Shown here: positions 5,800 through 42,371 of the stretch, in pieces | How positions within the stretch are numbered: position 1 is the stretch's first letter | Layout of the letters: each line of letters begins with the position of its first letter | Assembly (NCBI RefSeq): GCF_921293095.1 | Contig: NC_060252.1 | Location: forward strand, 43,152,881-43,216,880 | Length of the DNA stretch: 64,000 nucleotides | Reading direction: 5' to 3' | DNA from: Ischnura elegans | Lineage: Eukaryota > Arthropoda > Insecta > Odonata > Coenagrionidae | The notes under the pieces: model-generated | What the model was told of the DNA's origin: nothing | Seen by the model: only the letters and a program-made list of their open reading frames with translations | The model's database searches: none | Translations under genes and position numbers: made by a program

Positions 5800-5875
5800 T
5801 TGGTTTCACTTGGGATTTGAACCTTGAACCCTTGGATCAGTAGCCCAACACTTTATACCCACAAGAAAAACATGT
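5800..5875 (-). repeat. tRNA-derived SINE head
   Basis: On the minus strand, TAAAGTGTTGGGCTACTGA leads into a B-box-like GGTTCAAATCC. It resembles the SINE head at 20.6 kb. The A box is decayed. Confidence 0.45.
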
Positions 5876-6110
5876 ACTTTCCACAAATCACTATTGAAGT
5901 AATTTTTTCAATGTATTATTATTAAAAAAAAAACATTTCCCGATTTCCCAGAATTTAAATAAAGAGGGGCTTCAACTTAGAATCTGGTTTGTCTTGAATC
6001 CGTGCTAACACATATGGTAGGTATGAAAGGAACACTCCTACAAATAATTTCTAACCGTTTTATATACCAACATCTACCACATATAAACACCACAAATACA
6101 TCTATCCATG

Positions 6111-6290
6111 TCAGTCCCGGTGGCGTCAGTGTACAGTCCTCACCTGCTAATCCCAGGGTTGCGGCTTCAAATCCAGCCCAAATGGGTTTTTCACTCCTCA
6201 GGTCATGGGTGTTAGAAAAATTCTGTTGGTCTGGGCCCTGGAGAACCTACCAACTGGCTATACCATCTGGGATTCCCAGGGAAAAATAGG
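6111..6290 (+). repeat. tRNA-derived SINE
   Basis: The A-box-like GGTGGCGTCAGTG and B-box-like GGCTTCAAATCC are spaced as in a tRNA. They are followed by a non-tRNA body ending near an A-rich tail (AATAAAAATAG). The tRNA part cannot fold into a full cloverleaf, so this is not a functional tRNA gene. Confidence 0.6.
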
Positions 6291-6300
6291 TCACTAATAA

Positions 6301-11209: not shown

Positions 11210-11462
11210 TGTAACGTTTCAATTAATTTCACTTCGTTTTCACGTTACTTTCAAACATTTTATTTCACTTTAAAATAATACAAACTCGGGAGCGAGGGAA
11301 CACCCGTCCGCCATAACTATCACAATCCGAGTCCCCTCTTTTCATCTCCTCCCGCGCCGTCAACAATCCCAACAATTACCTCACTCCACCTCTGCTGCTT
11401 ATTATTGCTTTTATTTCGTCACACCAACAACCAAAACAAACCACTCAAAATTACGTGTTACA
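11210..11462 (-). repeat. 3' LTR of the gag-only element
   Basis: 253 bp, TG...CA ends (element orientation). Contains the GC-rich segment around AATCCGAGTCCCC on the plus strand. Same sequence as the partner LTR as far as can be read. Confidence 0.88.
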
Positions 11463-11825
11463 TTTGCCCCATTGGAAAAGAAAATGGAATGACATGCAAT
11501 TTTCTTTTTCAAAGCCTTCAAAAACAAAGTATTATGGGTTACGGGCGTGGCCCCAACGCCTTCAGTTTTGAACTTCCCCCTTTCCATCACACAAACACAG
11601 TTCACTCCACTTCACACACCGGCATTTCATTATTCCATCTGTCACACTTCTCTTACTTATCACTCCCCTTCTCCGTTCACTTTACTCATTCATTCATCAC
11701 TGTCATCATTCATTCCAAGCATATAAATACCAACCATGCACTTAATAAACAATCAACAAACACTCCTGCAATCACCCATATCAAATTATTACACATGTAT
11801 TTACCCTCACTTTTCTCCTGTCATA

Positions 11826-12899: not shown

Positions 12900-12996
12900 C
12901 TTGAATTCCCGCTCTCTACGACGCGACTCGTTCCTCAGGCGTTCCGTGGTCTCGATCCTTTCGAGAAGTCGTGCCCTACACGTTGCGGCGCCAAAA

Positions 12997-13249
12997 TGTA
13001 ACGTTTCAATTAATTTCACTTCGTTTTCACGTTACTTTCAAACATTTTATTTCACTTTAAAATAATACAAACTCGGGAGCGAGGGAACACCCGTCCGCCA
13101 TAACTATCACAATCCGAGTCCCCTCTTTTCATCTCCTCCCGCGCCGTCAACAATCCCAACAATTACCTCACTCCACCTCTGCTGCTTATTATTGCTTTTA
13201 TTTCGTCACACCAACAACCAAAACAAACCACTCAAAATTACGTGTTACA
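12997..13249 (-). repeat. 5' LTR of the gag-only element
   Basis: 253 bp copy adjoining the tRNA-Lys-like primer-binding site at about 12974-12993. The LTR should carry the element's promoter, although no clear TATA box stands out. Confidence 0.88.
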
Positions 13250-22200: not shown

Positions 22201-25200
22201 AAGCAATAGGGCATATGCATACAATTAGACACATATGTACTTAAGTTTCCAATTGTAATACATCTTTTGTCTTCTAATTATGTATTTCAATCTACATATT
22301 TATTGAATGAAACTTACTTGGCACTCAGTGCAGAGATGTCTTCTGGAGGAGGAATGCTGGAAACAAGAGCTCGGGATGTGGGAGAAGACCTTTGTGAGCC
22401 ATGTTTCGTAGGGGAAGACTCGGAGGATTCAGTCTTAAGTCTTTGGTTAGGAGAATTGGCAGTGGTAAGAGTGCTGGCAAGATTGGGGGACAACAACATG
22501 GGGGAAGATGCAGAGGAAGTAATTGCATCGACTGATGCATTTTGCGATGGTCCTTCTGGATTCATTGCCCTTTGACGAATTTCTTCATTCAAACGTAGAG
22601 CATTGGACAAACGCAGCTGTAAGACATCCCTCTCCTCCATCAACTAGAGATAGGGGATATTACAAACAAATAAATTATGCAGTAAAAACAAACATAATGC
22701 TATTGGCCTTAGCTGTATTACATATTTGTTTTTGAAACTCAATCGCCTAAGGAATAAAATGTAAGTAAAACAACTGCTAAATGCTTTCTCACTTAGTTCT
22801 TAGCCACACGAGTGTTATAATATTTTTGAATTTTATTTAAAATGAGTGTAAACTGAATTTCTTCTTCAAACACTACATCAACTCTAGAGAGAAAAAGAGG
22901 AGAGAAAAATTACGGATTTGCTCACCTGTTTCACCTCTAATGTCAGTTCATCGCACTGGACATCCCTCTGGTGTAGTGTGTACAGAGCTATATCCAGCTC
23001 CTCCTGTAGGGCACTCTCCTCTTCCTCTTCCCCTCCTCCCACATTCTCCACCCTCTCTTCCTCCTCCTCCCCAACAGACGTCCGCCTTCTACGATACTCC
23101 TCCTCCAACTGCCTCACAACCATCCTCAGCCTTGCCATCTCGTTGTCCTGCTCCTCTTTCATCTCCACTAACCTTGAGTTTGCTGCCTCGAGGACGTCTG
23201 CTCTCTCCCGGATCACCTCCCCTTCCCTCAGCCTCTCCTCGAGCTCAGCGACCCGCGCCTCCAGCTCCTTGACCCCTGACCTTGCAGCATTCTCGTCCTC
23301 CTCCTCGCTCCACTCCCACTCGTCTCGAGCCGTCTTACCGTCAACGCCCACGTGTTTCACGTTCGCCCTCGCCTCGTCTCGTTCTGCCTCGGCCACCCTC
23401 ACTGCCTCTGCCATCCGGTCACCCTCCAGCTCCATCTGCTCCAGGTTCGACGAAAGTCTCTCGCATTCCTCCTCCGCATACTTGAGCCTCGACAGAACCC
23501 TGTTCAGCTCCTCCCCTAGTCCCTCGGCTTTCTCCGACAGGGTCTCATTCTCCCTCTTCAACTCCTCCATCTTCGAGTTCGTTTCAATGTGCTTTCGGTG
23601 CACGTCGTTCGCTGCTTGGTTCTTTCGTTCCACCTCCTCCCCGTGTCTCGCTTTCAGTTCTTCCAATTCCCTCTGGTGGCCATCTCGATCCCTCATCAGC
23701 TCCTCGTCAAGCTGCTGAAGTTTCTCCTGGAGGCTTGATATGGCCGCATCCTTCTGGGTCAGCATGGAATCCAAAATGAGAAGTTTTTCCTGAGACTGCT
23801 TAAGGGCCTCGACATGTTGGCTACTTGAGTCTTCCTGTTTGCTTAAAAGCTGCATGAGTTGGGCTTCCTTATCACTTAACTTCTCCCGGAGCTCCTCAAT
23901 TTGGATGTTGTACTGCTGCTCGCCGGACCACAGCTTTTCTTCCATGCTTGCCACATGCAATTCAAAGTTTTTCAAGGCCTCGTCCTTCTGGGTGATTGCA
24001 GAGTTCATTTCTGCCAGTCTCCACTCCAATGACTGCTCTCCTTCTGCAGCTTTACTTTCAGCCCTTGTAAGCTCCTCTCTCAAAACTGTAAGCTCACTGT
24101 TCTTTTCGTCCAAGACTTTCTCAAGCTCATGCAATCTTTCCTGCAGACTCATGATGGCCTCACCTGAGTTGGCTTCTGAAGAGCTCAAATTTTCGTACAA
24201 CTTGGACATCTGATTCTCTTTATCTTGAAGAGCCATGGACATATCCTTCAGCCTATTTTCATAAGTTTTAATGGTGTTTTTCCAGCTGAGCTCATAATTT
24301 GATGCTTGCTTCTGCATGTCCCACAATTCAGATTCTTTGTCGGAAAGAGAAGATTCCAATGCACTCCTTGCCTGCCTTGCTTGTTCTTCAGTGCTGGCAA
24401 GTTTTTCCAGTAGTGATTCCTTCTCACGTTTGGCATTTGACATTGCTTCTTCAAGCTCCCTGATCTTCTCACTATGTTCCTGACTAAGCTGCAATGCCTT
24501 GGCTTCTGCATTCGACAACTCTGCCCTGGCCAGGGAGAGCTCATTCACTCTCTCGTTCAATATCACATCATATTCATTCAATTTTGCATTGTGAGCCTCA
24601 GTGACGTTTCCTAGTAACGTCTCTTTTTCGTTTGAGAATTCATTGAGCTGCCGATCCTTGTCCTCAATGACTTGCTCAAGGTCCTTCAATCTCCTTTCAA
24701 AAGTTACACTTGATTCCATCAACTTTTCTTGCAGAGCTGTCACTTCATTTTGCATAGAAGCAACAGTCTCATCTTTAGTAGCAGCTAATTTTTCAAGCTC
24801 CGTCACCTTTCCCTCAAAATATTTCCTGCAATCTTGCATTTTAACTTCAACGTCCAAAATCCCTTGCTTTGCCAAAACCAATTCATTTGTCTTGCTAGCA
24901 ATCTGTTCCTCCATTTGCTTCACACCTTCCTCATATGATACTAACTTATCCTTCAAATTCTTCTTCTCATTTGATTCCTGTTCAAAATATGATTGCAAAT
25001 AAGTATCCTTTTCGCCAATAGCTGATTGCAACTGCCTAATTTGTTCCTCATAATAATGACACCTTTCATTCAGTTGAGCATTTAAGTTATACAGCTCCTG
25101 ATCTTTCATACCAATGATGCCTTCTAACTCCTTCAACTTGGTCTCAAATGAGCTGCTTAAGCCCTGCAATTTGCTATCAGAGTCATAAATGTTTCTCTGA

Positions 25201-28200
25201 AGGTTTGATATTTCCTCTTCTTTCAAAGACAAACCACTTTCAAGTTCCTTGATTCTAATCTCACATTTATTCAATTCCGTCTGATACGTACTGCTGGAGG
25301 TCTCTGCAACTTCTTGGGCCGATTTTAACTGAGCCCTGGTACTATCTAACATGTCCTCCATCTCTTTCAGTCTTCTCTCACTAAGTTCTTCAGAATTTTT
25401 CAAACTCTCCAAGGCATGGCTTAGTTCTCCTCGCATCGAGAAGAGTTCTCCTTCTTTAATGCTCAACTGCTCTTCCATGGCTGTTATCTTTGCCTGTTTC
25501 TCCTGCTCCATTGCACTTATCTTGTCTGTAAGAGCAATCAACTCTCCCCTCAATGCCTCAACTTCGAGAGACCTTGAAGAGAGCTCTTGAGCCATTTCAT
25601 TAATCTTCTGCTCTTGCACATCAAACTGCATCTTCCACTGCTCTTCCCGACCTGAAAGTTCCTGCTGCAGAGAGGCCACCACCTTCGCCTCCTCAACCAA
25701 CTTATCCTCAGCCTGTTTCAACTTCTCCTCATGCTCCTGTTGAGCACCAGCCAACTTTGATTCCAATCCTGTCACTTCGTCCGTCACTGAGAGAACCCTA
25801 AGCTCAGCCTCTTCGAGTGCCTTTTCCAATTCCTTGACTTTAATTTCTTGGAACTGAAGCTCACCGGCTGCCTTCTCATTCACAGCCACCATTTCAGCTT
25901 GCAAGGATACCACTTTGTTGGTCTCTGAGGTCAATCTAGCCTCCAACTCCTTAACCTGTTCCTTGTGATGTGCCACAGTCTTGTCGACTTCAACCTGAAC
26001 ATTAGACACCTCCTCTTTGAGCAAGTCCACAAGACTTTCCCGATCTGCCACCATATCCATCAGCTCCTTCAACTGTGACTCATAGTCACTCTTCATTGCA
26101 TCTTGCTTAGTCTCAGCTTCTTTCAGCTTTTCCCTGAAATCGAGGACCATTTTCTTCATCTCCTCTGCCTTCTCCTCCACCAGTCCCTTCTCAACCTCAA
26201 CAGCCTTCTCAAGGGAGGCCACCGTAGCCTCAAGCTTCCTCTTGGCCGAACCCAATTCCTCCTTATCCTTAGTTAGGTTCTTAATTGTGGATTCCATACT
26301 GGCATTGTTACCCTGAATCTCCTCCAAAAGGTTGGTGAGTCTATCGCACTCTTCTTTGGATTCCTTCATCTGCTCTTCCAGGACCGAGCAACTCATCATC
26401 CACTCCTCGATAGCCTCAGCATGGTCTGTCAAACGTTCCTCCAGCTTTGCCCTCTCTTCTTCAAATTCCTCCCTCATCAGTTCAATTTCACCAACCTTCT
26501 CCTGCAACATTTCCTCCCTCTGCTTCAACATCAACTCCAGCTTCGAATGGTTCTTTATCCTACTGTCAAGCTCCTCATTTGTTGTCTCCAGCTCCTGAGT
26601 GGCGGCCTTGAGTCTTTCCTCAGAGGCCGCCAATTTTGCCTCAACATCTTTCACCTTTGTTTCCCTCTGCAATTCAATCACCCTCTCCTGCAGGGCGTTT
26701 AGTTCTTTTGTTGAGGCCTCGAGTTCAGCCAGTGAGCACTCCAGTTTTGTTCTGAGTTCCCGAATGGTTTTTTCTTGCTCTTCAATTTCTGTGTTCATTC
26801 CCTCCATGGCACTTGACTCATCTTTGTCCCTCATTGATTCAAGCTCATCCTTCATTTCTAACCTCTCTCTTGTTGCTTGCTCCAACTCTTCTTCCATTTC
26901 CACAGTTCTTATCTCTGCAGAAACTTTGAAAGTCTTCAGCTCCGAAATGGTGGATTCCATTTCTTGAAGTGTTTCATCCTTTGCATCATTTTCTGAAAAA
27001 ATTTCCACAGAAAATTTCAAGAGTTTGAAATGAAACCACTCAGAAAGGCCTCACTTATTTTTATGAAATATCAAGTAAAATTATCAGGAAAAAATAATGT
27101 GAAAATTATAATAAAAACATCATTTCAATTCAACGTTGACTCAATGGCTAAGATAAATTTTAGCTAGAATTTGCAAAAAAAATACCTATTTATACAGTTT
27201 GATAAATAAATATCAACATTGTTATCTGATTCTGCCCATTATTTACTAAATACTGCATTTACATGGAGAGGTAAAAAAGATATAATAATGACTGCTTCCT
27301 GCTAAATCAATCTTTTGAACAAAAGTTTGATGCATGAGTAATGTATAACCATAAGTTATTATGGATTAGAACAAAATTCAACCACCTATTTCCAAACAAT
27401 TTTACGTACTGATTGCAAACTATACTTTACTTTTATAAGACAAAAGACTATAAAATATGGCTTGAAAACTGAGTGTGCACAAATTTAATTATCAAAAAAT
27501 TAAAACAAATGACCTACAACGACAGACATCATTTCAATAACAAAGGCCATCTAATATAACTAAATATGAGATGATAAATTAAACATCACATAACAATAGA
27601 AGAACTACTCATTAATTCCAAGAGCTTACTTTTCTTAAGATCCATATTTTCTTTTTCCAGCAAAGAAACAGTTTCTTTCAGGTTTTCCAACTTAGATTCA
27701 TGCTCTTTCAGCAATTCCTCAAGTTCTGATACTTTTGACTTGGACTGAGAATCTGAAACTGATATGATTGCATGCTATTAGCATGTGTAATATTTAAATC
27801 GCAGAAAAGGATTTCAACTCAAAAGAGCAAGGAGCAAAAACACTCATGACACTAAAATAACACTGTGCAATGGACATATAAGATTAATGCAAATCCAAAA
27901 GACATTATTAGTGTATCAAAACTCTTTTGATTGAAATATTTACACCGAGAGTCTTTTTTTAAATAAGACACCACAGTAAAGAGTGATGAAAACTAGTTTC
28001 CTATCATGAGATCTGGGAGAGGTGAATCCTTGCAACTTGCAACCTTGTGGCTAATGTAAAAATTAGGTAAATGACTTCACACAATACTACCAATTTCAAT
28101 TAGAATTAGGATCGAATCCAAAATGTATTGGGAGTAAGAAAAATGATTCATTTCAATGCAACAACTGAATTCATTAGGCAATAGGCATCAGCAATTATGA

Positions 28201-31200: not shown

Positions 31201-34200
31201 TTAATAAAAGTAAAAACATAACTTTGCCTTTAAAGGCATTGCATACCGTCTAATCAAATACTTTCTATACTCTGCAAGACTCAAAGTGCTTGTCTGAGTC
31301 AAAGTCTTTTTCACAATAGATCATGCACAAACAGTTCAAAACACCAGACAATGCTATCACGATTGCAGGTTAAATTTTTCCATTTGAAGCAAGCATTTTC
31401 TAGAAAGAGACATATTTTACGCACTAGAATATAGCTTCAGCAATCTATGATTGAATTAAATAGCCAAACAGAACGATATACTCAGTGACCAGTCAGTTTT
31501 AAATAATTTCACTGGACAAGACTATACATGGATTAAGTAACACCAACACTGCTTAAGGCCGGCTCATAGAAAAATTAGCAATAAATTAATCATAAGGAGC
31601 ACACTTAGCGAGAGCACCACCCATAGATCATTAGCAGGGCTTACAGAAAAAATAAGTACAGAACCTGGGTAAATTACATTTAAAAAATTAACCTGGAAAA
31701 ATCAGCTGAAGATAATCAATTTTGAATTGGCATGAAATTTTTGGAATGCTTAATATAGTAGTCATTAACATATGCTGTTATTCCATGTTTTGCTAACTCA
31801 CAAGGTGAACCATGGATGATTAATCTGGTCTACGGCTCCACCTTCTTCATTAAAGCTCCTAGAATGCCCATTGAATTTTTTCCTTTCTATTGTCCGCTAC
31901 CGCCACTTGCCTTTTCGTAACTTCTCCCTCAATAAGATTAGATCCTCTCTTGGCATTGCTACTTTAGCTGATCGCCGTATCCTCAATGACCGGAGACTCT
32001 TCTTAAATATCATTAATGGCAAATACAGATCCTCTGACCTTCTTTCTTTTTTTCCGCTTCGTGTTCCTTCGCGCACGACGAGGTCGAGTGATCTATTTCA
32101 TTGTTTCACCCCCCGCCTTTCTGTTTCTAAACGTTCTTTTCTATTCAGACTTCCTTCTTCCATTAACTCCTATGCCAATTGTGTTCCAAATTTTGATCCT
32201 TTTTTTCATCCCTCATCCAACTTGCACCTTCACTATTGTAATTTTCCCCCTATTCCTCGCACCACTCGATGACTATTCTTTGTTATTTATTTGTAAACAC
32301 TGTTAAATATTTTTTGTTATTGTTGGTTACATAGCTTAATATTATGAAATTGTTTCTCAGGTCCTCTGTAATTGGCCTCGTGCTGTTTTTGGATTAACTA
32401 AATAAATAAATAAAATACATAAATTATGTTGAGATATCTATGAAATGTATAATTTCGTATATTCGCGGACAATGCCGTTTTTTTTTTATAAACAGAAAAA
32501 AGTATCTACGTACTTTTTTGTAGTCAAGGGTTTGTTGTTTTACTTTGTTGTGTGTCTATTAAAAATGGTTGAGAATAAAAACTCGAAGTAGATAGTGGAT
32601 CCTGATTTTTCCGGACTAACTGCCAAAGCTTGCACAAAGACTTCGCCCACGGGTTACCGAAATAAAATTTTTTATCAGATTACACTTCAGGATGAGAAAA
32701 ACATGGACATAATATGCAATGGAGAAGCAAAATCTGGTAAAGATATTGAGGCAGCTAAGATACAACATGACTTGCTTTCAAAACAGCGTGTGGTATTTTG
32801 CTCATGGTTCTTCAGATAAATGAGATGGCATCCAATACGGGTTAATTTGTTTTATAAAATTCACAGATCCATGAAGCTAATTTTTCGTCGAGCTCTTTAA
32901 TTTTTTGCTATTTTTTTTACAAATAGGCCTTTACTACTTTCCAATATACATAGTTATTAGTGCACACGAGGAATTTGATATATTATTACATGCTATAATT
33001 AGTGGTTATATTTACACATCTGATTTTCTTTCCTTCAAACAAATCATGATTATATTTACAATCGTGATTAATGAAGCCATGCATTTAGAGCAACACATCA
33101 GAAACAGACCAGATAATTGGAAAGTAAGTCATCTCCCTAGCATATATAGAGCAAACTTAAACCCAATCCTCTCAGCCCGCACCACTTCCACAATGTTTTG
33201 GCAAACTGGGAACTAGGAAGATCATGGGAAATATCCCAAAAATGTTCTCACAATCATATTTTCCAATTATCAGGCAGTGAACAAAGTGTCAACACTCTCA
33301 GCAAAGTCCCAAAGCCTTTTTGCTGCCCATGATGCAATCCCCATTCCCACCTTCCCACCTCATTTCGAACCAGGGCGAACCGAAGTGGCAATTTGTTAAC
33401 GGCACAACTGCCTCCCCACTCCAATCGACCCAGAACCAGACAAGAGGCATAAGGGACCATACCTTTCAGTTCATCAAAGTCTACCAGATGCAACTGTAGG
33501 TTACCTTTCTCCTCTTCCAGCTCGGCTATTCTGTTGTTCAGCGTTATGACCTCTGCATGAGCATCAGAAATCTGAAATGTTCATAAAAATATATGAATTC
33601 ATCGATATTCTAATTTATAGCGAGGCAATTCAGGGTTCAATGGGTATAAATTTTTCATGATAAAGGCAATTACTATAAAAGATTTCTGAATTCCCGGATG
33701 CCGCCACCGATGCTGGCTGGGTTAGATGTCGCCTAAGGTTTGAGAACTGTCTAAGTATACAGGGCAAGGGTGGTTTTAAATATTTTTTGTCTACATTATA
33801 AAAATTTAAATAAATGGGGTGACCAGTTAGCATTAGGGAAATAACAATTATCAATTGTATTATTACTCTCCATCATTTCTACCGACTCTCTCGCATTACA
33901 TTGCATAACATTTTTACTCCGCTTATCCCACCAGTGCAAACTTCACTGTTGTTCTACTTTCCCCACAAAAAAAGGTATACATTGCAGTCCTCAAGCAATA
34001 TTTTATACTAATAAAACAGATGCAAATTTCCACACAAGGCTCACCACCACATCCAACCAGAAATAACTACATAGTTTTAAAGCTGTTCATATTGATGAAA
34101 GTTTACTGTAATTATGTATAAATTTTAAATGATCTAATTTCTATAATAGTGGGTATGATTTATAAATGTAATAATCAGAGAGAGAGATGTGGGTAGGGAA

Positions 34201-37200
34201 ACCAGTCACTGAAAATTTGGTACAGATATTCTTTAATGGCATGATAACATTGAGCCTTAATTTTTAATATGTAATCTTATGTCTCGAGGAAAATAGAAAA
34301 ATATGCAATACATTTTCCCTTCATTACTTTAACTTTCCAAAAGTGAAGAAAATCAATCGAATATTACATGGTGCAAAACTGTGATGAATTGAAAGCTTTA
34401 ATTGGAGAGAAAATACACGTGATAATAATTACTTTTCACTTGAGCAAGGTGCTTTTAGAGACCGTTCAATTGGCCCTTATGAGTTGCCTTCATAACAAAA
34501 TACTATTTGGTGAAATTGAACCTCCCACCTTTGTCACACGTATAAAACATTTTAAAAATAAGATTACAACAGGCTTTTCAAATTACATTAGTAGAAAATG
34601 AGGGTTAACAGTAAATTTTACGTAGATTTGAAATGGTCTGATTTTCTGATGATGAGGGTAAGTTTATTCGTTCATATAATCAAATGCTTGTTTGGGTACA
34701 TGGAAAAGGAAGCCATTCAATGAAATTTTGGGCTCACCATTCATTAATGACAAGATGACACTCAAACTCATTGTGCTATTAACTTATTTCTTGAAAAACA
34801 GAAATTCTGTTATTCTCCCTTCACAAGGTCGTAACAAGATTACAGAATTGAAATTCCCACAAAAAAATATTATTTTCGTCTGATATTTAGACACTCTCCT
34901 TTTCATCACCACAAAATTTTTGAGGAGTAAGAGCCAATAAATTACAAATTTTTAAAAATACATTGAAATTCCTTTCCCTGCATGTTTCTTTAAAACAAAA
35001 ACATCGGAAATCAGTAACTCGTACACTAAATTTTAGTCAGATAGCAGTCACAAAATCCACACCATTACCCATTAGTCATCCAACAGGTCAGTGATTCTAA
35101 TGATTTTCATATCATAATGTAGGTAAATTTTCCCTGATGATAAAGAGGAAATTCCCATTTCACATTCCCCAACTATTCCGATTTTCTTGACCTGCATCAA
35201 CCCTGCTTTATCTCTAACCATTTTCCAAAAGCAAAAACTAATCAATTTATAGTTAAATGAATGATTGAAAAATATACATAAAAATTAATAAGGTAAGATG
35301 GGAAATAAGAGTTTAAACTGTAGAGAACATGTCGCTCACTTTTTTCACTCGAGCAAGTTGCTTTTCAAGAGCTTTCAATTGACCCTTATGAGTGGCCTTC
35401 ACTCGCACCAATTCCTGTTTGGCTGCCTCAAGAGCATTCTTGGCCTCATCCAGCTCCTCATTGTTTTCCTGGTTACTCTTCACCACTTTGGATTCCATTT
35501 CAGCATTTTCAGCTTTCAATTGTTCATTCATTTCCTTGCACTCTACACTCAATTTTTCCAGCTCCTCAAGCCTGAGAAAAAGACAAGAGCAGATAATTTA
35601 TCAATAGGGTGGTTTCCTATTATTTTTTTATTGCCTAAATCGAAAGATTATTACTCCTGGAGTACGTATTTCACGCTTTTAGATTTTTAAATGACGATAT
35701 CTATTTTTCGCGATTAAATGAAAAGTGAAAATTTTCAAGCGCCCGAAAACGCGACGCGTAAGTATGAATGCCGGGAAATCTCTCCGTGTGACGTATTTCT
35801 GGTTCCCACTGCTGCCCTGTGAATTGACCTTGAGGCGAGGGTTAGCGCTGATACGACGCAGGCTGCTAGCGGGTAGCTGAGTACCCTGCTGGCTGGTAGC
35901 GCTTGGCTTAAATAAGGATTATTAATACCTTATCAAATGAAGAAAATTTTCCGACCTAAGCCAGTTTTAATATGTGATTATTAAGACATGTTTCCCTGAG
36001 CTCTGTGCCTCATGCATGCATTGGTAACCTCAGACAATGTATAACTCCTATCTACTCATATAGAAACTAGGTCCCTGTGACGTCACGTGGAGTGGTATTG
36101 CATGGGTGCCAATCTGGCCCTTTTCAAATGAGGATAAAAATGGACCATTGCCATTCGTCTAAACCGGTATTTCTAAAATGAAATAATTTGTACATTATAA
36201 ATACAGTAATGGTGGGTAACGAATCGCAATCAATGCCTTTCGTTTTCTTTGATAAAGGAAACTACCCTATTGACTCATTCAAAAACAGCCAAAATGGCCT
36301 TTACATTGAATAGACAACTTAAAATCTGAAGCTTTAACAAATATAAACTATAAAAAGGATATTAAAGAAAGAAAAAAAGGTTCAGAAGATGGCTTTTGGA
36401 AGCTGCCCCTTGAATGATCTGATGGGCATTGAAAGATCCAGGGAAGGGTGAGTAGTCGAAATGGTATTGAAAGAGGTATGGAGTCTGTAAAAAAGTGATC
36501 TCTCAGAGAGAGAAAGACTGAATTTAGGTTGGTGTAGTAGGTGGTTATTACGGAATATTAAATTTACTCCACCCATAGTTATAAGAAGAATTTTTCCAAT
36601 TTTTTGAAACAATGGCCAAAAATATTTGAGGCATAATAACTCCTAATTGAAATGTTTACCCCTACAGATTTTGCTATAATTCAGCAGTATTGATTCAGAA
36701 GTTATGTTTTAGAGCTGAAATGAACAGCCCTGACAAGTGGCATATCGAACAGTCCCCCATTGGCGGCACTCACACCTAGCTAGATCAAGCTTTGTTTACG
36801 CTCGATTTGTAATTTGTTCATTGGCCAGAAAATATAAGTTTGAATTCATTTTATTACATTTTATATGGAAAACCCTGATAGCCTAAGATACTAAACCAAG
36901 ATGAGTAAATAGGGCTAGAGGAAAATCTGATTTGTACTAATGCACAAAAGTAAAATGAAAATAAATAAAGTAGCTAATACATTTTGTCTTCAAAACTTTG
37001 TTATTTTTGCTAGCAAGCATAAATATAATCCATGCAAACAGCGCCCGCAACATCATAGCACATTTTTCCTCCTACAGCATGGATGCAAATAAATTCAACT
37101 TTATTGGCAAACATTATTTACAACATGCAACAAAATAAGTTTCAAGCTGGCATTCAATTTCTTTAGCTATGAAGTCAAGTCGATATATCACTCATCGCCC

Positions 37201-40200
37201 AACTCTGGCCCTAGGAAATTCTACAACATATGATGACTTTGGGACCTGCCTTACAAAAAACATAGAGGACGGAGGACGAGAGGAGGAGGAGAGATGTGAG
37301 GACGGAGAAAGACATTAGGTTAGAACAGAGGCGTAGATAATGAGGGGATAACCATCTGAACCTGACCACACCAAAAAATATTTATAAATATGTAGAAATA
37401 TGGAACTATGTATGTAAATGGTTAATTAGAATGTGAATCGTACACATTTAATTACAATCTCTGCCATGTAGCATTCCATGGCCAGTTGCAAAAAAGATGT
37501 ATACCATGGAAAAACGTTAATTGCATGAGTGTAACGGTGATGTTCATTGTGTTTAATTTTTGTATAGTGGATGATGGTATTCCTTAAGAAATCAACTAAA
37601 AAATCTACTTGTTAGGGGTTTTTGGTACTATATTATTTTTATAAGTAGTACTGTATTTTCAAAAATGGTCTTGGGAAAAAAGAAGTAGGGGAAGAGAACC
37701 AACAACAGAAAATTTGGCCCAAATCCATGCAGGAGAGTTATATTCGATGATAATTTGGCATGGAATGATCCATAATGAATCAAGAAAGGAGTAAGTGCCA
37801 AGCATATTCGACAGACTGCCCATCTCACATTCGATCAAAATACCTTTTATAATTTGAGGGCAAAGTAAGAGACTAGCAGCTCACCTCTGGAGAGCTGATG
37901 TCAGCTGTTCCCTCAATGACTCAGCCTGAGCTTTGGCACCTTCCTCCCTGATGGCAAACTCCTCTTGCATCCCTCTCATCTGCTTCCGAGTCTCGTCCAG
38001 TGCCTCCTGAGCACTCCTCCCACGTCGCCCCGCATCCTCAGAGGCAAGGACGACAGCTTGAGTCCTCGCTTCAATCACCTCATCCTTTTCCTTCAGGTTT
38101 TCCTGTAATATTTCGAAAGACACTTAATCAGGGTTCCCACTCTAACTACATTATAAAATTCACGGTTTTTTCCAGGTTTTCACGGTTTAAATATCATCAA
38201 ATTCACGGTTTGTAGATTGGGCATTTTAGGCAGAAATATTGATCACGTAACAATCATCGGCCGCACGTTAACTAAAAATGTAACAAACGCAACAGATGCC
38301 TTGAATGCAAACGCAGCAATGACAGTGCTATCTCTCATGACGTCACCTATCGTAAGCAAAATTCAGGTCCGGCGAAAGGGTGCGAGTGGGAAAGTGGAGA
38401 GAGAAGGGTGGCAGGGAAGTGAAGAAGTGCCTGATTTTTTGCCAGGGTTAACGTCTTCCAATCGCAGGTTTAAGGTCAATGTGCTGTCATGGCACATACG
38501 GACCAATAGGGTGGTTTCCTATTATTTTTTTATTGCCTTAATCGAAAGATTATTACTCCTGGAGTACGTATTTCACGCTTTTAGATTTTTAAATGATAAT
38601 ATCTATTTTTCGCGATTAAATGAAAAGTGAAAATTTTCAAGCGCGCGAAAACGCGACGCGTTAGTAGGAATGATGGGAAATCTCTCCGTACGTCGTATTT
38701 CTGGTTCCCCCTCCGCCCGGTGAGGTGACCTTGAGGCGAGGCTTAGCGCTGATACGTCGCAGGCTGCCAGCGGGTAGCCTAGTGCCCTGCCGCCTGGTAG
38801 CGCTTGGCTTAAATAAGGATTATTAATACCTTATCAAACGAGGAAAACTTTCCGACCTTAGCCAGTTTTAATAAGTGATTATTAAGACACGTTTCCCTGA
38901 GCTCTGCGCCTCATGCATGCATTGGTAACCTCAGACGACGTATAACTCCTATCTTCTCCTATAGAAACTAGGTCCCCGTGACGTCACGTGGAGTGGCATC
39001 GCATGGGCGCCAATCTGGCCCTTTTCAAATGAGGATAAAAATGGACCATTGCCATTCGTCTACACCGGCATTTATAAAACGAAATAATTTGTATATTATG
39101 AATACACTAATGGTGGGTAACGAATCGCAATTATTGCCTTTTGTTTTCTTTGATGAAGGAAACTACCCTATTAATAGTTGCGCTTTCGAATACATGTGGG
39201 CAGCTAAATGTGTGGACAGTATCTGCACGTGACTCGACCTTGAAACATGATTGAAATATCATTTTTTTTTTCTTTTAACCCGTCTATCGTTGTTCTGCAA
39301 TCAAGTTTGATAGATTTTTAAGGTTCTATGACGAAATTCACGGCTATTTCCAGGTTTTTTCACGGTAGACGCAATTCACGGCTTATTCACGGTTTTAAGG
39401 TTTTCACGGTTGAGTGGGAACCCTGTTAATATAATATAATAAAATACACATAATAAAATTTCATAAAATAAAAATACACATAGGGTAATCCAATGTCAGT
39501 TCATCAAGCCGTTTTGGTAATATAGTGAAACTTACTCGGCAACTAAAATGGTTGAATCATTGTAAAAAAAAAGCAGACAGAATGAGTGATTTCATAAAAT
39601 ATTCAATGAAATACAATAAATAGTGAACTAACCTTCAAGTCAATGATAGCAGCTTCCAACTGAGTCACTTTGTTATTCAGCTCCACAATCTTATTGTCTT
39701 TATAAACAATCTGAGCATACATTTCCCGAGATTCAGCTCCAAGATTTTCAGCCTATGAATAGAGATACCATATTGTAACATTTATGTAATGATTCAAGAG
39801 AATTATAAAACACCAATATACAGGATACAATGAAGATAGCATGGTACAGTAAAGAAAAAATTAATTTTAAAGGGAGTAATTAAAAAATCCGATTCTGTGA
39901 ATCTAAAATTCAGCAGCCCTACTACGAATAAGACTGCAACCCAATTAGGCCTCTATCTTCCTTTAAAAAGTAGATTTTTTAATAATGCTTTATAACAAAT
40001 GAATTCTGGTACACATATGTTTTTCAATCTGATATATTCAGTACCTAAAATTAAATTACAGATTTTCCATCACTAGCATGTATCTGTGCAGGGGCGGATC
40101 CAGGATTTTTTTCAGGGAGGGGCACAAGCAAGGCCGTATCCAGGATTTTGTTCTGGGTGGGGCACAAGGATACCTCGTAATACAAAATGAATGCAATGAT

Positions 40201-42371
40201 AATGGGACCGTATTAAATATCATGCATATTTTTGAGGGTCTGGGGGGGGGCACGTGCCCCCATGCCCCCCCCCCTGGATCCGCCTATGTATCTGTGCAGA
40301 ACCGGCATGAATTGTATCTTTATTCTAAGTACAAGTACACATTCATTCAAACTTAAAATCCATTGCTTCCATTTAACCCAATCTTACACCACTTCATCTC
40401 TACTATTGAAGCTAGGATATAGGAACTCAACTGTTTCCATCTGCAATATTTGTTTTTTTCCTCATGGCTAACATCTTCCATCGTTAATGTCTACTTGGCA
40501 AATCTCCATATCATGCAAAATATGTGATGTAAAGTCTCTATTGCAAGACCTGATATAGGAACTCAACTGTTTCCATGTGAAATTTTTTTTCTCATTGTTA
40601 ACATCTTCCATTCTTATGTCATACCGCATCCAGCTTCAGGGGTGCAGCTAGGAATTTAGGCTGGAGGGGGGGGGTTTAGGTGCAACTGATACCGGGGTAA
40701 GTGGGGGTATGGTATACCCACCAGGATAAGCGGTAGGTGCGAGATTAATAAATTGCATAATTTTAAGATAAATGGTTCAAATTGGTGAGTTTTATGGCTT
40801 TCTGAGGTATATTTTATTAATCCTTACACTTTTCTATTAGTAATATCAATCCAATTAAGTAAATGGATCAAACTTAAACATTTCTCTGAGCTCGGGGGGG
40901 GGGGGGGTTTATCCCCCAAAACCCCCCACTTGCTGCGCCACTGTCCGGCTTATACCTTGAATCCCATTGTAGACTAGGGATTAAATGAGTTCATACAGTA
41001 TGTATGCATCATTTTCCAAGCAAAAAGAATAAGAAATACAAAGCCGTGCCAAATGAGCCCATATAAGATCACAGTTTCAAAGAATTAGAATTGAATTTTT
41101 GAGAGATAGTTCACCTCTTTCTCCTTGCCCTTCTGCTGATCAGGTGCAATCTCAGAATTCATGACTGGGGGAGGGGCTTTCTCCACAACTGGGGCATGGA
41201 GGGCATCAATCATGTGGTTCTGTTGGTTGAGCTGAGTACGGAGGTGCTCCACCATCACCTCCAACTCCTTTCTGTTTTCCATAGCATGCCTCTCCCGTTC
41301 CTCGAACTTAAGTCTACATAAATTTAAAAAAAAACATTGTCAGAACACTTGATAAGAGAAAAACAGGCCACTTAACAAATAAAATATGCTAAATTTTCAC
41401 AAATCTAAAATGCTACCCTCTCCTGAAAACCAGCAAAAATAAACTTTCCTTAAAGAAGTAACAACAGATATGCAAATGTGGAAAAGGCATTTTAATCCCT
41501 CCATTTACTGCCACTGAAAACAAGAGAACATTTGAAGACGGAAGTGAATTAAAGATATGCAAACGCTTTAAATAGTAAGTCAAAGAGGTATTCTAAATTT
41601 CATGCCAATCTCTTTACTGAAAACTACTAACAATCCCATACAAGCTTACTTCCAAACACCAACCAGCAACACCTATATTTTTCAACAAAACCTATTTATC
41701 ATAAATTTGTAAGAAAAAACATTAAATTTATAATGATGTATTCATATTTCTTACACAAAAAATGCATGAGCTTTAATAAATTAATTGGTCAAACATCTAC
41801 ATTCATTCATTTTCTTCAAGGATTCAGTATGTCTTTTTCATTACTAAGATATATATATACACACTCTGCACTTCAACAGATGGCACGCACGCGAGGATGC
41901 TAAAATAGCATGAGAATAGCAGACACAAAGGAAGGAATTGCTTCAACAAAATACACCACCGTAAAAAGAAGCCAATCAACAAAGGGGGTCGGTGTACACA
42001 ATGGTGGGATTGCATAACTTGAGAAAACTTTACGAATTAACCGCTTCACATGGCTTACCTATTCTCTTCTAGTTTCTTACGAAGTAAGAGCATTTTCCCC
42101 TTGCTGGAAGACTTTTCTACAGGCATTTCTTTCTTGGGATCTTTATTTATATCAGCATCCACTGGCCTTTTAATAGCACCATCTGCGACATCAACAAGAC
42201 TTTGCTTGTCTGCTTCAACGGGCAGTGGACTGTTGAGGGATAGCCTTTTATGCCGAGATTTCATCTCGGAAAATTTTGGGGCGTACTCCTAAAAGAAGTG
42301 TCAAGTTGAAGTAAGGATCAACGATAAAATGCACTCGTAAAACCAACGGAAGGACATATACGTACCTCCAT
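16203..42371 (-). CDS. Large coiled-coil protein gene (golgin / Lava lamp-like), 12-exon model
   Basis: Exons joined in minus-strand order are 42371-42366, 42288-42059, 41313-41115, 39752-39633, 38102-37885, 35571-35340, 33571-33505, 27752-27630, 26992-22926, 22643-22318, 18314-18073 and, tentatively, 16243-16203. The total is 5,871 nt, an exact multiple of three, giving about 1,956 residues. Every junction is GT-AG and the reading phase matches at each join. The N-terminus (MEEYAPKFSEM) is followed by a basic, Ser-rich region with an MLLLRKKLEENR segment, and then almost continuous heptad coiled coil to about residue 1755. After that comes a Ser/Pro-rich linker and a last Arg/Gln-rich helical exon. 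No motor, CAP-Gly, GRIP or membrane segment is visible. The architecture suits a golgin-type tether or scaffold; insect Lava lamp is my best guess from general similarity, not from an alignment. The gene is certain; its name and its 3' end are not. Confidence 0.85.
16850..17640 (+). mobile_element. Penelope-like element 3' relic (GIY-YIG endonuclease end)
   Basis: Three frames in succession encode NIRDQSGIYRLK, then CGQTGRSLKVRAEEHKRDFE with SQFAAHLLEDG, then YIVSAISRKDVITNVHVF. These correspond to the C-terminal GIY-YIG endonuclease region of Penelope-like retroelements: the GIYRL motif, GQTGRS, the R..EH helix and FA.HLL..G. Two frameshifts and loss of the YIGQ tyrosine show it is inactive. 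Downstream lies the typical ...GCAGCGAAACATGTCGAC terminal motif. It lies in the proposed last intron of the coiled-coil gene. Confidence 0.75.
17511..17549 (+). ncRNA. Hammerhead-ribozyme-like motif of the Penelope-like element (decayed)
   Basis: Stem I would be AGTC (17511-17514) with GACT (17546-17549). Stem II is GCTGC/GCAGC with loop AGT (17523-17535), followed by GAAAC and ATGTC. The conserved CUGAUGA core reads TTGATAA, with two changes expected to abolish cleavage. Such ribozymes are known in Penelope-like element ends. Confidence 0.5.
17896..17999. repeat. Perfect 49-bp inverted repeat with 6-nt loop
   Basis: Arms 17896-17944 and 17951-17999 are exact reverse complements; the loop is AGTCCG. 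They are GC-richer than the surroundings. A 13-bp direct repeat AACCTTAAGACAT flanks the structure (17885-17897 and 18030-18042), so a segment of about 130 bp looks inserted. The unique part (18000-18029) ends in GCCTGCATAAGG. Confidence 0.88.
18073..18314 (-). CDS. Coiled-coil gene, exon 11
   Basis: The acceptor is TAATTATTAAG and the donor GTGAGT. The alternative acceptor CTCTCAG ten bases further in would break frame, so the upstream one is chosen. The exon encodes residues 1863-1943: ISQLHSVGHHLDVRLLNDRE and then QMQLLEMRRQAYKQF, followed by a basic KRQRSASHGGR patch. It leaves in phase 1. Confidence 0.78.
18450..19674 (+). mobile_element. Harbinger-like element relic with MADF fragment, hosting a pogo-like insert
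   Basis: The ends AGGTACGTTTACACTGTG and (inverted) AGGTGAATTTACTCTGTG pair imperfectly. Inside, 18718-18836 reads MVAWQQAEMIGLIESYREQR, then RLLRDP, a stop and AEDYKNKHD. This matches the start of the MADF/Myb-like DNA-binding protein that accompanies PIF/Harbinger elements. Stops show decay. The target duplication is unclear (TAA against TAT). It lies in the intron between exons 10 and 11. Confidence 0.5.
18932..19619. mobile_element. Pogo/Tc1-mariner-type MITE nested in the Harbinger relic
   Basis: Ends CAGTAAAATCTCTTTATA and (inverted) CAGTAAAACCTCTATGTA, flanked by TA on both sides. 688 bp without a transposase frame. GAGGTTCACTACA motifs recur near the right end. Confidence 0.7.
19872..20393. 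mobile_element. hAT-type MITE, 522 bp
   Basis: Ends CACGGGTGGTCTGG and (inverted) CAGGGGTGGTCTAG. A perfect 8-bp duplication GTTTTCAC lies at 19864-19871 and 20394-20401. Intronic in the coiled-coil gene. Confidence 0.82.
20500..20613 (-). repeat. tRNA-derived SINE
   Basis: The minus strand begins GGGTTTGGTAGCCTAGTGGG (A box TAGCCTAGTGG) and reaches the B box GGTTCAAATCC. A short non-tRNA tail follows. Confidence 0.6.
21075..21373 (-). mobile_element. hAT-type MITE, family shared with 40.6 kb
   Basis: Flanked by GCCAAGGT and GCCAAGAT (8 bp, one change). Ends CAGTGATGCAGTGAGG and (inverted) CAGGGGCACAGCTAGG. The body matches the 40637-40943 element in opposite orientation, including the CCGCTTATCCTGGTGGGTAT segment. 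Confidence 0.75.
22318..22643 (-). CDS. Coiled-coil gene, exon 10 (Ser/Pro linker)
   Basis: The acceptor is TATCTCTAG and the donor GTAAGT. The 326 nt, residues 1755-1862, begin as helix (LMEERDVLQLRLSNALRLNE). They then become a disordered Ser/Thr/Pro-rich stretch with several SP sites (SSPMLLSP, SESSPTKHG, SSPTSRA), possible phosphorylation sites. Confidence 0.87.
22926..26992 (-). CDS. Coiled-coil gene, giant exon 9 (1,355 codons)
   Basis: The acceptor is AATTTTTTCAG and the donor GTGAGC. The exon is 4,067 nt, residues 399-1754, with no in-frame stop. It is Glu/Lys/Leu/Gln-rich with continuous heptads and very few prolines, so it predicts one long parallel rod. Residues 706-1507 (26072 to 23667) are 21 tandem units of about 39 residues. 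Each starts with a pattern like [L/I/V]KELExxLxxK[D/E] and ends near E-[K/R]. The last 180 residues are more acidic and include glycine breaks (NVGGGEEEEE). The part nearest the 3' end (22926-23700) is clearly more GC-rich than the rest. The long serine-rich frames on the opposite strand are reflections of the Glu/Leu codons and are not genes. Confidence 0.92.
23667..26072 (-). repeat. Array of 21 coiled-coil repeats, 39-residue period
   Basis: The unit starts can be read as LKELMDMV, VKELEARL, VKELEKAL, LKQAEDKL, INEMAQEL, ITAMEEQL, LKEMEDML, IKELESGL, LKELEGII, IRQLQSAI, VKQMEEQI, VTELEKLA, LKDLEQVI, LNEYDVIL, IRELEEAM, RSALESSL, LKDMSMAL, LHELEKVL, LAEMNSAI, IEELREKL and LLILDSML. Spacing is 39 residues except units 9 and 15 (32, one heptad short) and unit 13 (36). 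The sum is 802 residues, which equals the 2,406 nt measured on the DNA. The units are diverged at sequence level, so the duplication is old. Confidence 0.85.
26993..27629. other. Intron 8 of the coiled-coil gene
   Basis: AT-rich. Bases about 27368-27490 resemble about 28400-28515 on the other side of exon 8 (shared ATGGCTTGAAAACT / TTGGCTTGAAAGCT and ACTTTACTTTTAT / ACTTTATTTTTAC). Confidence 0.5.
27630..27752 (-). CDS. Coiled-coil gene, exon 8
   Basis: The acceptor is ATCAGTTTCAG and the donor GTAAGC; 123 nt, residues 358-398. Leucine-rich heptads, for example SKVSELEELLKEHESKLENL. A 5.7-kb intron full of transposons separates it from exon 7. Confidence 0.85.
28528..30329 (+). mobile_element. 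Tigger/pogo-like DNA transposon, 1.8 kb, degenerate
   Basis: Ends CAGTGGAACCCCGATCTATC and (inverted) CAGTGGAACCTCGATCTATC, with TA on both sides. At 29600-29718 the plus strand reads PKKQVGTLKDGLKIIEYEEK, HPG, a stop, then KHVNIGERLGLSAST. This is the helix-turn-helix start of a pogo-class transposase. No catalytic DDD region can be read. CCCGCAT...ATCGTT motifs repeat near both ends. Confidence 0.72.
30332..31819. other. Intron 7, unassigned part
   Basis: Noncoding and AT-rich. A short complementary pair occurs at about 30455-30500 (CATCTGGTATAAGA / TCTTATACCAGATG), a 14-bp hairpin. No gene. Confidence 0.45.
31820..32415 (+). mobile_element. 5'-truncated non-LTR retrotransposon (RT C-terminus)
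   Basis: One frame runs IWSTAPPSSLKLLE...SLNKIRSSLGIATLADRRIL...NIINGKYRSSDLLSFFPLRV and VPSRTTRSSDLF, the standard C-terminal end of Jockey/CR1-type reverse transcriptases. It ends at a stop near 32270 and a 3' tail of AAATAAATAAATAAA near 32400. Truncation at the 5' end is typical of LINE insertion. Confidence 0.72.
32416..33504. other. Intron 7, exon-proximal part
   Basis: No coding feature supported. CAGATAATTGGAAA at about 33111 has a near inverted partner at about 33260, hinting at a small inverted-repeat element. Confidence 0.4.
33505..33571 (-). CDS. Coiled-coil gene, exon 7
   Basis: The acceptor is GAACATTTCAG and the donor GTAACC. The 67 nt encode ISDAHAEVITLNNRIAELEE and EK, residues 336-357. 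It enters at phase 0 and leaves at phase 1. Short, but the splice sites, phases and heptad pattern agree with both neighbours. Confidence 0.8.
34430..34515 (-). pseudogene. Relic duplicate of coiled-coil exon 6 (pseudoexon)
   Basis: This stretch lies in the intron between exons 6 and 7. It matches the end of exon 6 base by base over most of about 85 nt. On the minus strand it reads ATHKGQLNGL, then a stop codon, then KHLAQVK; exon 6 reads ATHKGQLKALEKQLARVKK. It has lost a good donor and carries a stop, so it is not coding. It is evidence of a local exon duplication. Confidence 0.7.
35340..35571 (-). CDS. Coiled-coil gene, exon 6
   Basis: The acceptor is TCTTTTTCTCAG and the donor GTGAGC; 232 nt, residues 258-335. 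Strong heptads (for example LEELEKLSVECKEMNEQL and KATHKGQLKALEKQLARVKK). A decayed copy of its 3' part sits about 0.9 kb away at 34430-34515. A 667-bp repeat starts 32 bp upstream of its acceptor. Confidence 0.87.
35604..36270. mobile_element. 660-bp inverted-repeat element, copy A
   Basis: Ends ATAGGGTGGTTTCC and (inverted) ATAGGGTAGTTTCC. About 667 bp, no coding capacity. It closely resembles copies B and C. The outer TA may be the target duplication (Tc1/mariner style), but the conserved CA before it makes the boundary uncertain. It lies 32 bp upstream of the exon 6 acceptor. Confidence 0.75.
36271..37884. other. Intron 5, unassigned part
   Basis: Noncoding. Contains a short purine-rich tract (GAGGACGGAGGACGAGAGGAGG, near 37264). 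No gene. Confidence 0.5.
37885..38102 (-). CDS. Coiled-coil gene, exon 5
   Basis: The acceptor is AATATTACAG and the donor GTGAGC; 218 nt, residues 186-258. Coiled coil with ENLKEKDEVIEARTQAVV and a glycine break (EDAGRRGRS). It leaves in phase 2. A nested hAT-like element begins 26 bp upstream of its acceptor (at 38129). Confidence 0.85.
38129..39425. mobile_element. hAT-like element with nested copy B
   Basis: Ends CAGGGTTCCCACTC and (inverted) the same 14 bases exactly. Repeated TTCACGG motifs lie just inside both ends. Without the nested element it is about 630 bp. The flanks share TTAAT but no full 8-bp duplication, so the superfamily is probable rather than proven. Confidence 0.65.
38506..39171. 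mobile_element. 660-bp inverted-repeat element, copy B
   Basis: Same ends and body as copies A and C (shared GTGACGTCACGTGGAGTGGC core). Inserted inside the hAT-like element 38129-39425, so it is the younger of the two. Confidence 0.75.
39633..39752 (-). CDS. Coiled-coil gene, exon 4
   Basis: The acceptor is ATTCATAG and the donor GTTAGT; 120 nt, exactly 40 codons in phase 0-0. It encodes a heptad segment containing YKDNKIVELNNKVTQLEAA. It continues directly into ENLKEKDEV of the next exon. Confidence 0.85.
40089..40288. mobile_element. hAT-type MITE, 200 bp
   Basis: Ends CAGGGGCGGATCCAGG and (inverted) CATAGGCGGATCCAGG. A perfect 8-bp duplication TATCTGTG lies at 40081-40088 and 40289-40296. 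It contains C/G homopolymer runs. Confidence 0.82.
40637..40943 (+). mobile_element. hAT-type MITE, 307 bp
   Basis: Ends CAGGGGTGCAGCTAGG and (inverted) CAGTGGCGCAGCAAGT. Flanks TCCAGCTT and TCCGGCTT (one change). Second copy of the element at 21075-21373. Confidence 0.78.
41115..41313 (-). CDS. Coiled-coil gene, exon 3
   Basis: The acceptor is TTTATGTAG and the donor GTGAAC; 199 nt, residues 79-145. The first half is helical (ERERHAMENRKELEVMVEHL). The second half is a Pro-rich linker with the segment EKAPPPVMNSE. Phase enters at 2 and leaves at 0. Confidence 0.85.
41314..42058. other. Intron 2 of the coiled-coil gene
   Basis: AT-rich, no repeat or coding feature recognised. Confidence 0.55.
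42059..42288 (-). CDS. Coiled-coil gene, exon 2 (N-terminal basic region)
   Basis: The acceptor is CTTCTTTTAG and the donor GTAAGC. The 230 nt encode residues 3 to 79. The exon is rich in Lys, Ser and Asp (for example KSRHKRLSLNSPLPVEADKQ) and probably unstructured. It ends in the charged segment KGKMLLLRKKLEENR, where the first coiled coil begins. It ends in phase 2, matching exon 3. Confidence 0.85.
42366..42371 (-). CDS. Coiled-coil gene, start exon (Met-Glu)
   Basis: Only ATG GAG is coding here, followed by the donor GTACGT. The context upstream of the ATG is ...CGTAATA. The next exon begins GAG TAC GCC in phase 0, giving MEEYAPKF. Upstream on the minus strand, TTTTCTGAAG could be the acceptor of a 5'UTR intron, and a TATAAA lies at 42401-42406. 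The true transcription start is not resolved. Confidence 0.6.

Follow-up and report, generated by a model that had tools for sequence, protein, structure and literature searches.

The actin-binding pseudo-repeat of tropomyosin measures 39.3 residues. Tandem 39-residue units also make up the repeats of the Leishmania K39 kinesin-like protein, as described in the available parts of PMC9587664 and PMC6921591; the former cites a coiled-coil prediction for the kinesin repeats, and the rK39 antigen is described as having 6.5 non-identical repeats. Stutters, as presented in the available part of PMC9369452, are four-residue phase slips that give hendecads. The 38-39-residue helical motif of CagY indicates that a heptad-like sequence need not form a coiled coil (excerpt of PMC2581425), a precedent that counts against the tether model proposed below.

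Among the Golgi proteins, Lava lamp is a spectrin-binding coiled-coil protein of large size that sits on Golgi membranes and may act as an adaptor for dynein/dynactin (excerpt of PMC4620150). Giantin has a transmembrane domain as its anchor (excerpt of PMC5840792), and the length of its coil, not the sequence, is conserved; the coils of golgins contain numerous short breaks (both from an excerpt of PMC5082667).

How does the present locus compare with these systems? The window, a 64,000-nucleotide stretch of Ischnura elegans DNA, encodes a long coiled coil with a real 39-residue repeat. A partial literature search for such a repeat led nowhere, none of six sequence fragments sought in the literature was found, and the available parts of PMC1322226 and PMC9849145 contain nothing on repeats.

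A rod of 21 units

The repeat lies on the minus strand, within the open frame 22884-27050, while the plus-strand frame over the same region is interrupted by many stops. Our recount bears out the 21 units of the original prediction, as well as its claim that their sum, 802 residues, equals the DNA span. The unit boundaries were placed by hand, and the cuts at residues 639 and 863 bring the neighbouring units into register.

23667..26072, minus strand: repeat rod of 21 units (18 of 39, two of 32 and one of 36 residues), ORF residues 327-1128
25041..25136, minus strand: 32-residue unit, shortened by one heptad, ORF residues 639-670
24582..24689, minus strand: 36-residue unit, likewise shortened, ORF residues 788-823
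24369..24464, minus strand: 32-residue unit, shortened by one heptad, ORF residues 863-894

Over residues 327-1160, the mean BLOSUM62 score at lag 39 is 0.547, which corresponds to z values of 14.3, 13.3, 13.5, and 11.3 against full, 7-block, 11-block, and 28-block shuffles, respectively. The signal also survives the heptad-preserving shuffles by which it had been proposed to be judged, with z 13.9 when the position modulo 7 is kept, and it stands at 9.1 when the hydrophobic/polar pattern is kept. In each of the six kinds of shuffle, 0 of 2000 sequences matched the lag-39 value at any lag from 8 to 130. The block and phase shuffles thereby rule out a heptad artefact as the source of the signal. 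For residues 327-1128 alone, the similarity is 0.59 (z 14.1, 500 7-block shuffles), and the exon flanks outside the rod give no lag-39 signal (z 0.0-0.9, 500 shuffles each).

Leave-one-out profiles recovered the assigned start, within 19 residues on either side, in 17 of the 18 full units, with the unit at 671 shifting by 7. With a profile of the first eight full units, the 14 best windows include 8 of the 10 later units; with a profile of the last six, the 12 best windows include 7 of the 8 earlier units, although units 327, 366, and 444 score lower with the latter than some windows outside the array.

Anatomy of the unit

The hydrophobic period of the rod is 3.545-3.550 residues, and the heptad period is almost without signal (over residues 327-1128, the power is 73.7 at 3.550, 51.9 at 3.545, and 0.1 at 3.500). 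Therefore, four heptads plus one hendecad fit the unit, and the Fourier analysis agrees with the original prediction of 11 turns, as 39/11 is 3.545 and not 3.5. The value falls between 3.5 and 3.667, the range expected of a coiled coil with regular hendecads. Every hydrophobic peak in 156-residue windows from 222-377 through 1002-1157 lies at 3.54-3.575, and the period of the N-terminal flank (ORF residues 20-326) is 3.502.

Within the unit, the hydrophobic sites are 1, 4, 8, 15, 18, 22, and 29, with weaker ones at 25, 33, and 36. Core sites 1, 4, 8, 15, 18, and 22 are hydrophobic in 98/108 cells, and sites 25, 29, 33, and 36 in 38/72. Ile and Val occupy 29/90 a positions and 4/72 d positions (site 11 included), while Leu and Met occupy 33/72 d positions; this preference is the rule for parallel dimers and speaks for such a pair. 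Site 11, a d site, is Lys or Arg in 14 of the 18 full units and hydrophobic in none. Charges at i,i+5 comprise 49 attractive and 47 repulsive pairs, that is, no net attraction, and therefore g-e′ salt bridges give an in-register parallel pair no support. Both the basic d site and the charge balance count against the tether model.

An old repeat held at the protein level

The full units are only 19.6% identical on average (153 pairs), and the mean for successive ones, 7.9 of 39 residues, barely exceeds the 7.6 of the average pair. At lag 39, codon positions 1, 2, and 3 of the first eight units give 0.42, 0.46, and 0.30, as compared to 0.30, 0.30, and 0.29 at other lags. The repeat is thus visible at codon positions 1 and 2 and leaves no trace at position 3, and is therefore old and held at the protein level. 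Among 1168 residue-identical pairs, 495 share the codon (0.424; expected, 0.404). Recent tandem duplication was rejected, since the silent sites are at background and Tandem Repeats Finder reports no DNA array at the rod. A second copy of the exon was likewise rejected; the only match in the genome, among 34 scored of 176 candidates, is the exon itself.

Could the pattern be a mere relic, set by an ancient tandem duplication and preserved by core packing alone, so that the period and the slack twist do nothing beyond what a heptad rod does? The low identity and the scarcely greater likeness of successive units accord with this possibility, as does the presence of core sites 1, 4, 8, and 15 among the most informative columns. 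However, the lag-39 signal is still 9.1 standard deviations above the shuffles that retain the hydrophobic pattern, because outer sites are conserved too: site 39 is Lys or Arg in 14/18 full units, site 37 is Glu in 11/18, and sites 3 and 5 are each acidic in 12/18. We consider the relic explanation possible, albeit rather unlikely.

Another possibility is a ladder in which residues occurring once per unit (an aromatic residue or His at 36, Glu at 37, Lys or Arg at 39, and the Lys at buried site 11) form a putative binding site every 5.8 nm, the approximate rise of a straight unit, for a repeating partner such as a filament or identical proteins in a row. His, Phe, or Tyr occupies site 36 in 10/18 full units, and the basic residues show a strong fourth harmonic at 9.75 residues (power 14.8, against 5.7 for the 99.9% shuffle point). 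In contrast, the acidic and hydrophobic residues lack the first- or second-harmonic zoning of tropomyosin, the three units of other lengths interrupt the strict spacing, and no result points to any partner; we thus regard the ladder as improbable. In a bolder version, little likelier in our judgement, the ladder would be graduated and selected as such: the 21 units would constitute a tether of set length, with the slack twist and sites 36, 37, 39, and 11 facing a repeating partner step by step. We know of no golgin that employs such a ruler principle.

Self-assembly, in which chains or dimers would pack with whole-unit axial shifts into a staggered filament or sheet, appears very improbable. 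Besides zero, the best hydrophobic coincidences do occur at shifts of 78, 117, and 39 (ratios 1.70, 1.64, and 1.63), but this is expected of any repeat, and the unit length shows no strong banding of charge. With the 18 full units in phase, the acidic power is 1.2 at 39 and 1.3 at 19.5 residues, and the basic power is 3.3 and 0.3, respectively.

Comparison with tropomyosin and other repeat systems

Tropomyosin resembles the rod in its period length, and a two-stranded coiled coil is expected in both. However, the likeness to its actin-binding pseudo-repeat, suggested in the original prediction, was not supported. Human TPM1 has a period of 3.500, a lag-39 z of 0.5, and an acidic power of 10.0 at 19.65 residues; it thus combines heptads with acidic zoning and lacks the residue-level lag-39 repeat. 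The rod has this repeat and neither of the other features, with powers of 0.1 at 3.500 and 0.7 (acidic) at 19.65. We accordingly rejected a tropomyosin-like zoning. The acidic half-period is absent, and the actin idea is therefore unsupported; the 5.8-nm rise is close but unequal to the actin spacing.

The K39 protein, compared here by its partial description, shares the tandem 39-residue units but is another protein from another lineage. With the stutter coiled coils, the rod has hendecads in common. Its stutters return roughly every 39 residues along the 802 of the rod, and therefore the heptad frequency is nearly absent.

The gene and its family

The rod and its flanking coiled coil are encoded by a single large exon, and further exons were found on both sides.

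42059..42288, minus strand: most 5′ exon found
41115..41313, minus strand: upstream coding exon
37885..38102, minus strand: upstream coding exon
35340..35571, minus strand: upstream coding exon with a weak match to Golgin_A5 that falls short of the Pfam cut-off
33463..33571, minus strand: upstream coding exon, 29-residue motif resembling a provisional giantin sequence
27630..27752, minus strand: upstream coding exon, phases fit
22926..26992, minus strand: one large exon of 4067 nt with the entire rod and the coiled coil on either side (acceptor TTTTTTCAG, donor CAG|GTGAGC)
26073..26992, minus strand: N-terminal part of the large exon, a coiled coil that lacks the 39-residue repeat
22926..23666, minus strand: C-terminal part of the large exon, coiled coil without the repeat, terminal motif resembling a provisional giantin sequence
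22314..22643, minus strand: last exon, rest of the C-terminal motif, Ser/Pro-rich tail, stop codon, no Pfam match

The start codon was looked for and not located. An exon-like frame at 55239-55466 was left out of the gene, as its 45-residue core has four copies in a region of about 100 kb on that contig.

Weak matches to the provisional giantin sequence suggest that the gene encodes a golgin of the giantin/Lava lamp type. With this sequence, model residues 1-372 give a 29-residue motif as the best match (13 identical, E 0.002), and residues 1481-1835 give a 48-column motif (E 0.002); the N and C motifs share their order with giantin, which is also a very long coiled coil. When the whole model is compared, the three matches listed do not include the N motif, and the C motif, the best, scores 25.8 bits, below the 99% point of 500 shuffles (28.9). 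Against the C-terminal part alone it scores 26.6 bits (500 shuffles: best 27.3, 99% point 23.9). A Pfam scan yielded three matches, all below the cut-off. The weakness of the giantin and Pfam matches counts against the tether model.

Giantin may differ in its transmembrane anchor: none is evident by eye in the Ser/Pro-rich last exon found here, though a further exon may follow. Golgin coils are broken by many short gaps (excerpt of PMC5082667), whereas the stretch here is unbroken, a difference that also weighs against the model. The N-terminal half of the provisional giantin sequence (lag-39 z 3.6, with at least six lags higher) lacks a leading 39-residue period, unlike the rod. The expectation that ordinary golgins lack so strict a period is backed by one same-genome control, a coiled-coil open frame of 1,081 codons close to a GRIP match, with a lag-39 z of 0.5 and a period of 3.49 (own best lag 31, z 6.1).

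A GRIP golgin was rejected: PF01465 has no match in any of nine scanned pieces, of which eight belong to the rod gene, and the genome's two listed GRIP matches are on C4 and C6 rather than C7. A PDB sequence search with the ORF gave 0 matches at E 0.001, and the unit profile gave 19 weak coiled-coil matches at E up to 1 (best 0.00045). Pattern scans of genome contigs (15 matches) and of viral contigs (two) found no relative.

A proposed low-twist tether

On balance, we favour the view that the rod is a low-twist tether, that it belongs to a long coiled-coil protein, most probably a golgin of the giantin/Lava lamp type, and that it arose by ancient duplication of a 39-residue unit. We infer the following course.

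Origin: An ancestral 39-residue helical unit, comprising four heptads and one hendecad, was probably duplicated in tandem long ago, and the units would since have been maintained by selection on the protein.

Pairing and twist: Two chains would pair in parallel. The supercoil would be slack, because the stripe advances 3.545 rather than 3.5 residues per turn. Assuming a free helix of 3.62 residues per turn, one supercoil turn would take about 172 residues (26 nm), as compared to about 106 (16 nm) for pure heptads.

Tethering: Each 5.8-nm unit would consist of well-packed positions 1-22, followed by the weaker, hendecad-bearing positions 23-39. The rod, predicted to be about 119 nm long, would thus carry evenly spread soft joints within some 1,600 residues that contain no proline (none occurs between model residues 134 and 1755). 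It may serve as an evenly bendable long spacer that keeps Golgi membranes or vesicles apart.

An 802-residue rod whose repeat has been lost at silent sites yet kept in the protein suggests selection on the twist and the joint spacing themselves. Such selection would offer a natural model for the setting of coiled-coil pitch and flexibility, and it raises a simple question for comparative work: is unit number variable and unit length fixed?

Gene structure and protein identity

The array of 39-residue units, hereafter called the rod, is encoded on the minus strand by one large exon, which joins seven others in phase to give a spliced model of 1,835 residues. The 5′ start of the gene model was searched for and was not located.

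22884-27050, minus strand: open frame holding the rod, 1,388 codons
22926-26992, minus strand: single large exon inside this open frame
42059-42288 to 27630-27752, minus strand: six upstream exons, phases compatible
22314-22643, minus strand: last exon, phase compatible

With 34 of 176 candidates scored, the large exon matches one place in the same genome, namely itself. A Pfam scan of nine pieces gave three matches, none reaching the cut-off. The best matches of an unverified giantin sequence to the two ends of the model follow the same order in both proteins. The match to the N part covers 29 residues, 13 of them identical, and scores 28.1 bits (E 0.002), where the highest score among 200 shuffles is 26.2; the match to the C part covers 48 columns and scores 26.6 bits (E 0.002), where 500 shuffles reach 27.3 at most and have their 99% point at 23.9. 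Because neither match exceeds the shuffles against the whole model, the protein would be described as giantin/Lava lamp like, and is not assigned as a member.

Other elements in and around the window

An apparently complete short LTR retrotransposon occupies 11210-13249. Its LTRs are two 253-bp direct repeats, 100% identical, starting with TG and ending with CA; ACAT lies at either flank, and the interior holds a 401-codon minus-strand open frame, gag-like by eye. The insertion is likely recent. A dispersed element is present at 35602-36113, 38504-39014 (91-94% identical to the first copy) and 63205-63705 (78-84%). At about 44995-45498, a MITE-like element (by eye) of ~500 bp has ends that are inverted copies of each other and contains many palindromic 11-mers, such as GTGGAATCCAC. 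The exon-like frame at 55239-55466 (minus strand) has no Pfam match; four occurrences of its 45-residue core (91-100% identity) are spread across about 100 kb on the same contig, and it is perhaps a member of a tandem gene family. Outside the window, a 1,000-codon minus-strand open frame (L006, about 4856-7855) begins with a part resembling a LINE endonuclease/reverse transcriptase by eye.

The 39-residue repeat

The 21 units of the original prediction cover open-frame residues 327-1128; 18 of them have 39 residues, two have 32 and one has 36, and their boundaries were placed by hand. The consensus is approximately L-K-E-L-E-x-x-L-x-x-K-E/D-x-E-L-x-x-L-Q-x-E-L-S-x-x-E-x-K-L-x(6)-h-E-x-K, with many loose positions, and full units are on average 19.6% identical (153 pairs; maximum 15/39, minimum 1/39). 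Over residues 327-1160, the strongest lag among 1-129 is 39, followed by 78 and 117. The proposed period is significant against six types of shuffle, each run 2000 times: the lag-39 z, the self-similarity at this offset in standard deviations, is 14.3 at its highest and 9.1 at its lowest, where the hydrophobic pattern was preserved, and no shuffle matched the observed value at any lag from 8 to 130. The exon flanks gave no lag-39 signal (z 0.0-0.9). Leave-one-out profiles recover 17 of the 18 full units, and half-to-half profiles recover 8/10 and 7/8, some units in the latter case scoring below windows outside the array.

Geometry and core of the rod

The hydrophobic power of the eight unbroken full units (residues 327-638) is 30.9 at a period of 3.545 and 0.4 at 3.500; for all 802 rod residues, it is 73.7 at 3.550, 51.9 at 3.545 and 0.1 at 3.500. 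In 156-residue windows from 222-377 through 1002-1157, the peak lies at 3.54-3.575, and the rod therefore fits the predicted four heptads plus one hendecad per unit. The adjoining windows peak at 3.500 and 3.520 on the N side (118-273, 170-325) and at 3.535, 3.525 and 3.515 on the C side (1054-1209, 1106-1261, 1158-1313). Windows farther away have weaker peaks scattered from 3.49 to 3.68, and three windows N-terminal of the rod peak at 3.565-3.615. By arithmetic, a 32-residue unit makes 9.03 turns of 3.545, leaving the stripe nearly in phase, while the 36-residue unit displaces it by about 0.15 turn. Assuming a helical rise of 0.1485 nm per residue, a 39-residue unit contributes 5.79 nm to a rod 119 nm long. 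The supercoil would complete a turn in about 172 residues for a helix of 3.62 residues per turn (136-234 for 3.64-3.60).

Unit sites 1, 4, 8, 15, 18 and 22 are hydrophobic in 98/108 cells, as compared to 38/72 at sites 25, 29, 33 and 36, so that a firm and a weak segment would alternate within every unit. Site 11 is never hydrophobic in the 18 units and is Lys/Arg in 14. An Ile/Val preference for a over d is a mark of parallel dimers, and the bias seen here (29/90 at a, 4/72 at d) points to such dimers. The i,i+5 charge pairs are even (49 attractive, 47 repulsive) and therefore leave the chain register unfixed, while intrachain pairs are chiefly attractive (i,i+3, 71 versus 20 repulsive; i,i+4, 51 versus 31).

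Comparison with other coiled coils

Three controls were used for the period: a frame from a GRIP region, human tropomyosin TPM1 and the N-terminal half of the unverified giantin sequence.

C6 (another contig of the same genome), 51.283-51.333 Mb (L019-L023): match to GRIP, the C-terminal golgin domain (PF01465); a coiled-coil open frame of 1,081 codons shares its strand

These two were taken as parts of one putative golgin gene. The frame has a lag-39 z of 0.5 and a hydrophobic period of 3.49, on the opposite side of 3.5 from the rod; its top lags are 31 (z 6.1) and 59 (z 5.3), and golgin-like coils can therefore carry weaker repeats. The giantin half has a lag-39 z of 3.6, with lags 14, 28, 21, 35, 60 and 74 higher. 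The original prediction also drew a likeness to the tropomyosin period. TPM1, however, has a lag-39 z of 0.5, a period of 3.500 and an acidic power of 10.0 at 19.65, whereas the rod has 3.545-3.550 and 0.7. On these tests, the resemblance is a chance agreement of length.

Age of the repeat

At codon positions 1 and 2, the likeness at lag 39 is 0.42 and 0.46 among the first eight units, and 0.34 and 0.50 among the last six. Position 3 stays at background, with 0.30 in the first set and 0.26 in the second, against 0.29 and 0.26 at other lags. Residue-identical pairs between full units share the codon in 495 of 1168 cases (0.424; expected 0.404). The repeat would thus be either an old duplication or a convergent likeness; in both cases, it is maintained at the protein level.

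Possible function of the rod

The repeats of the Leishmania K39 kinesin also have 39 residues, with a coiled-coil prediction cited for them, and the CagY A motif (38-39 residues) is helical yet not a coiled coil by CD. The CagY case cautions against assuming that the rod helices pair. The rod might serve as a ladder for a repeating partner, for which the recurring residues are the one support, and we consider this improbable. The flexibility of the golgin GCC185 is a topic of PMC5082667. On the most economical reading, the rod would serve as a tether whose twist is slack and whose soft joints are evenly distributed.
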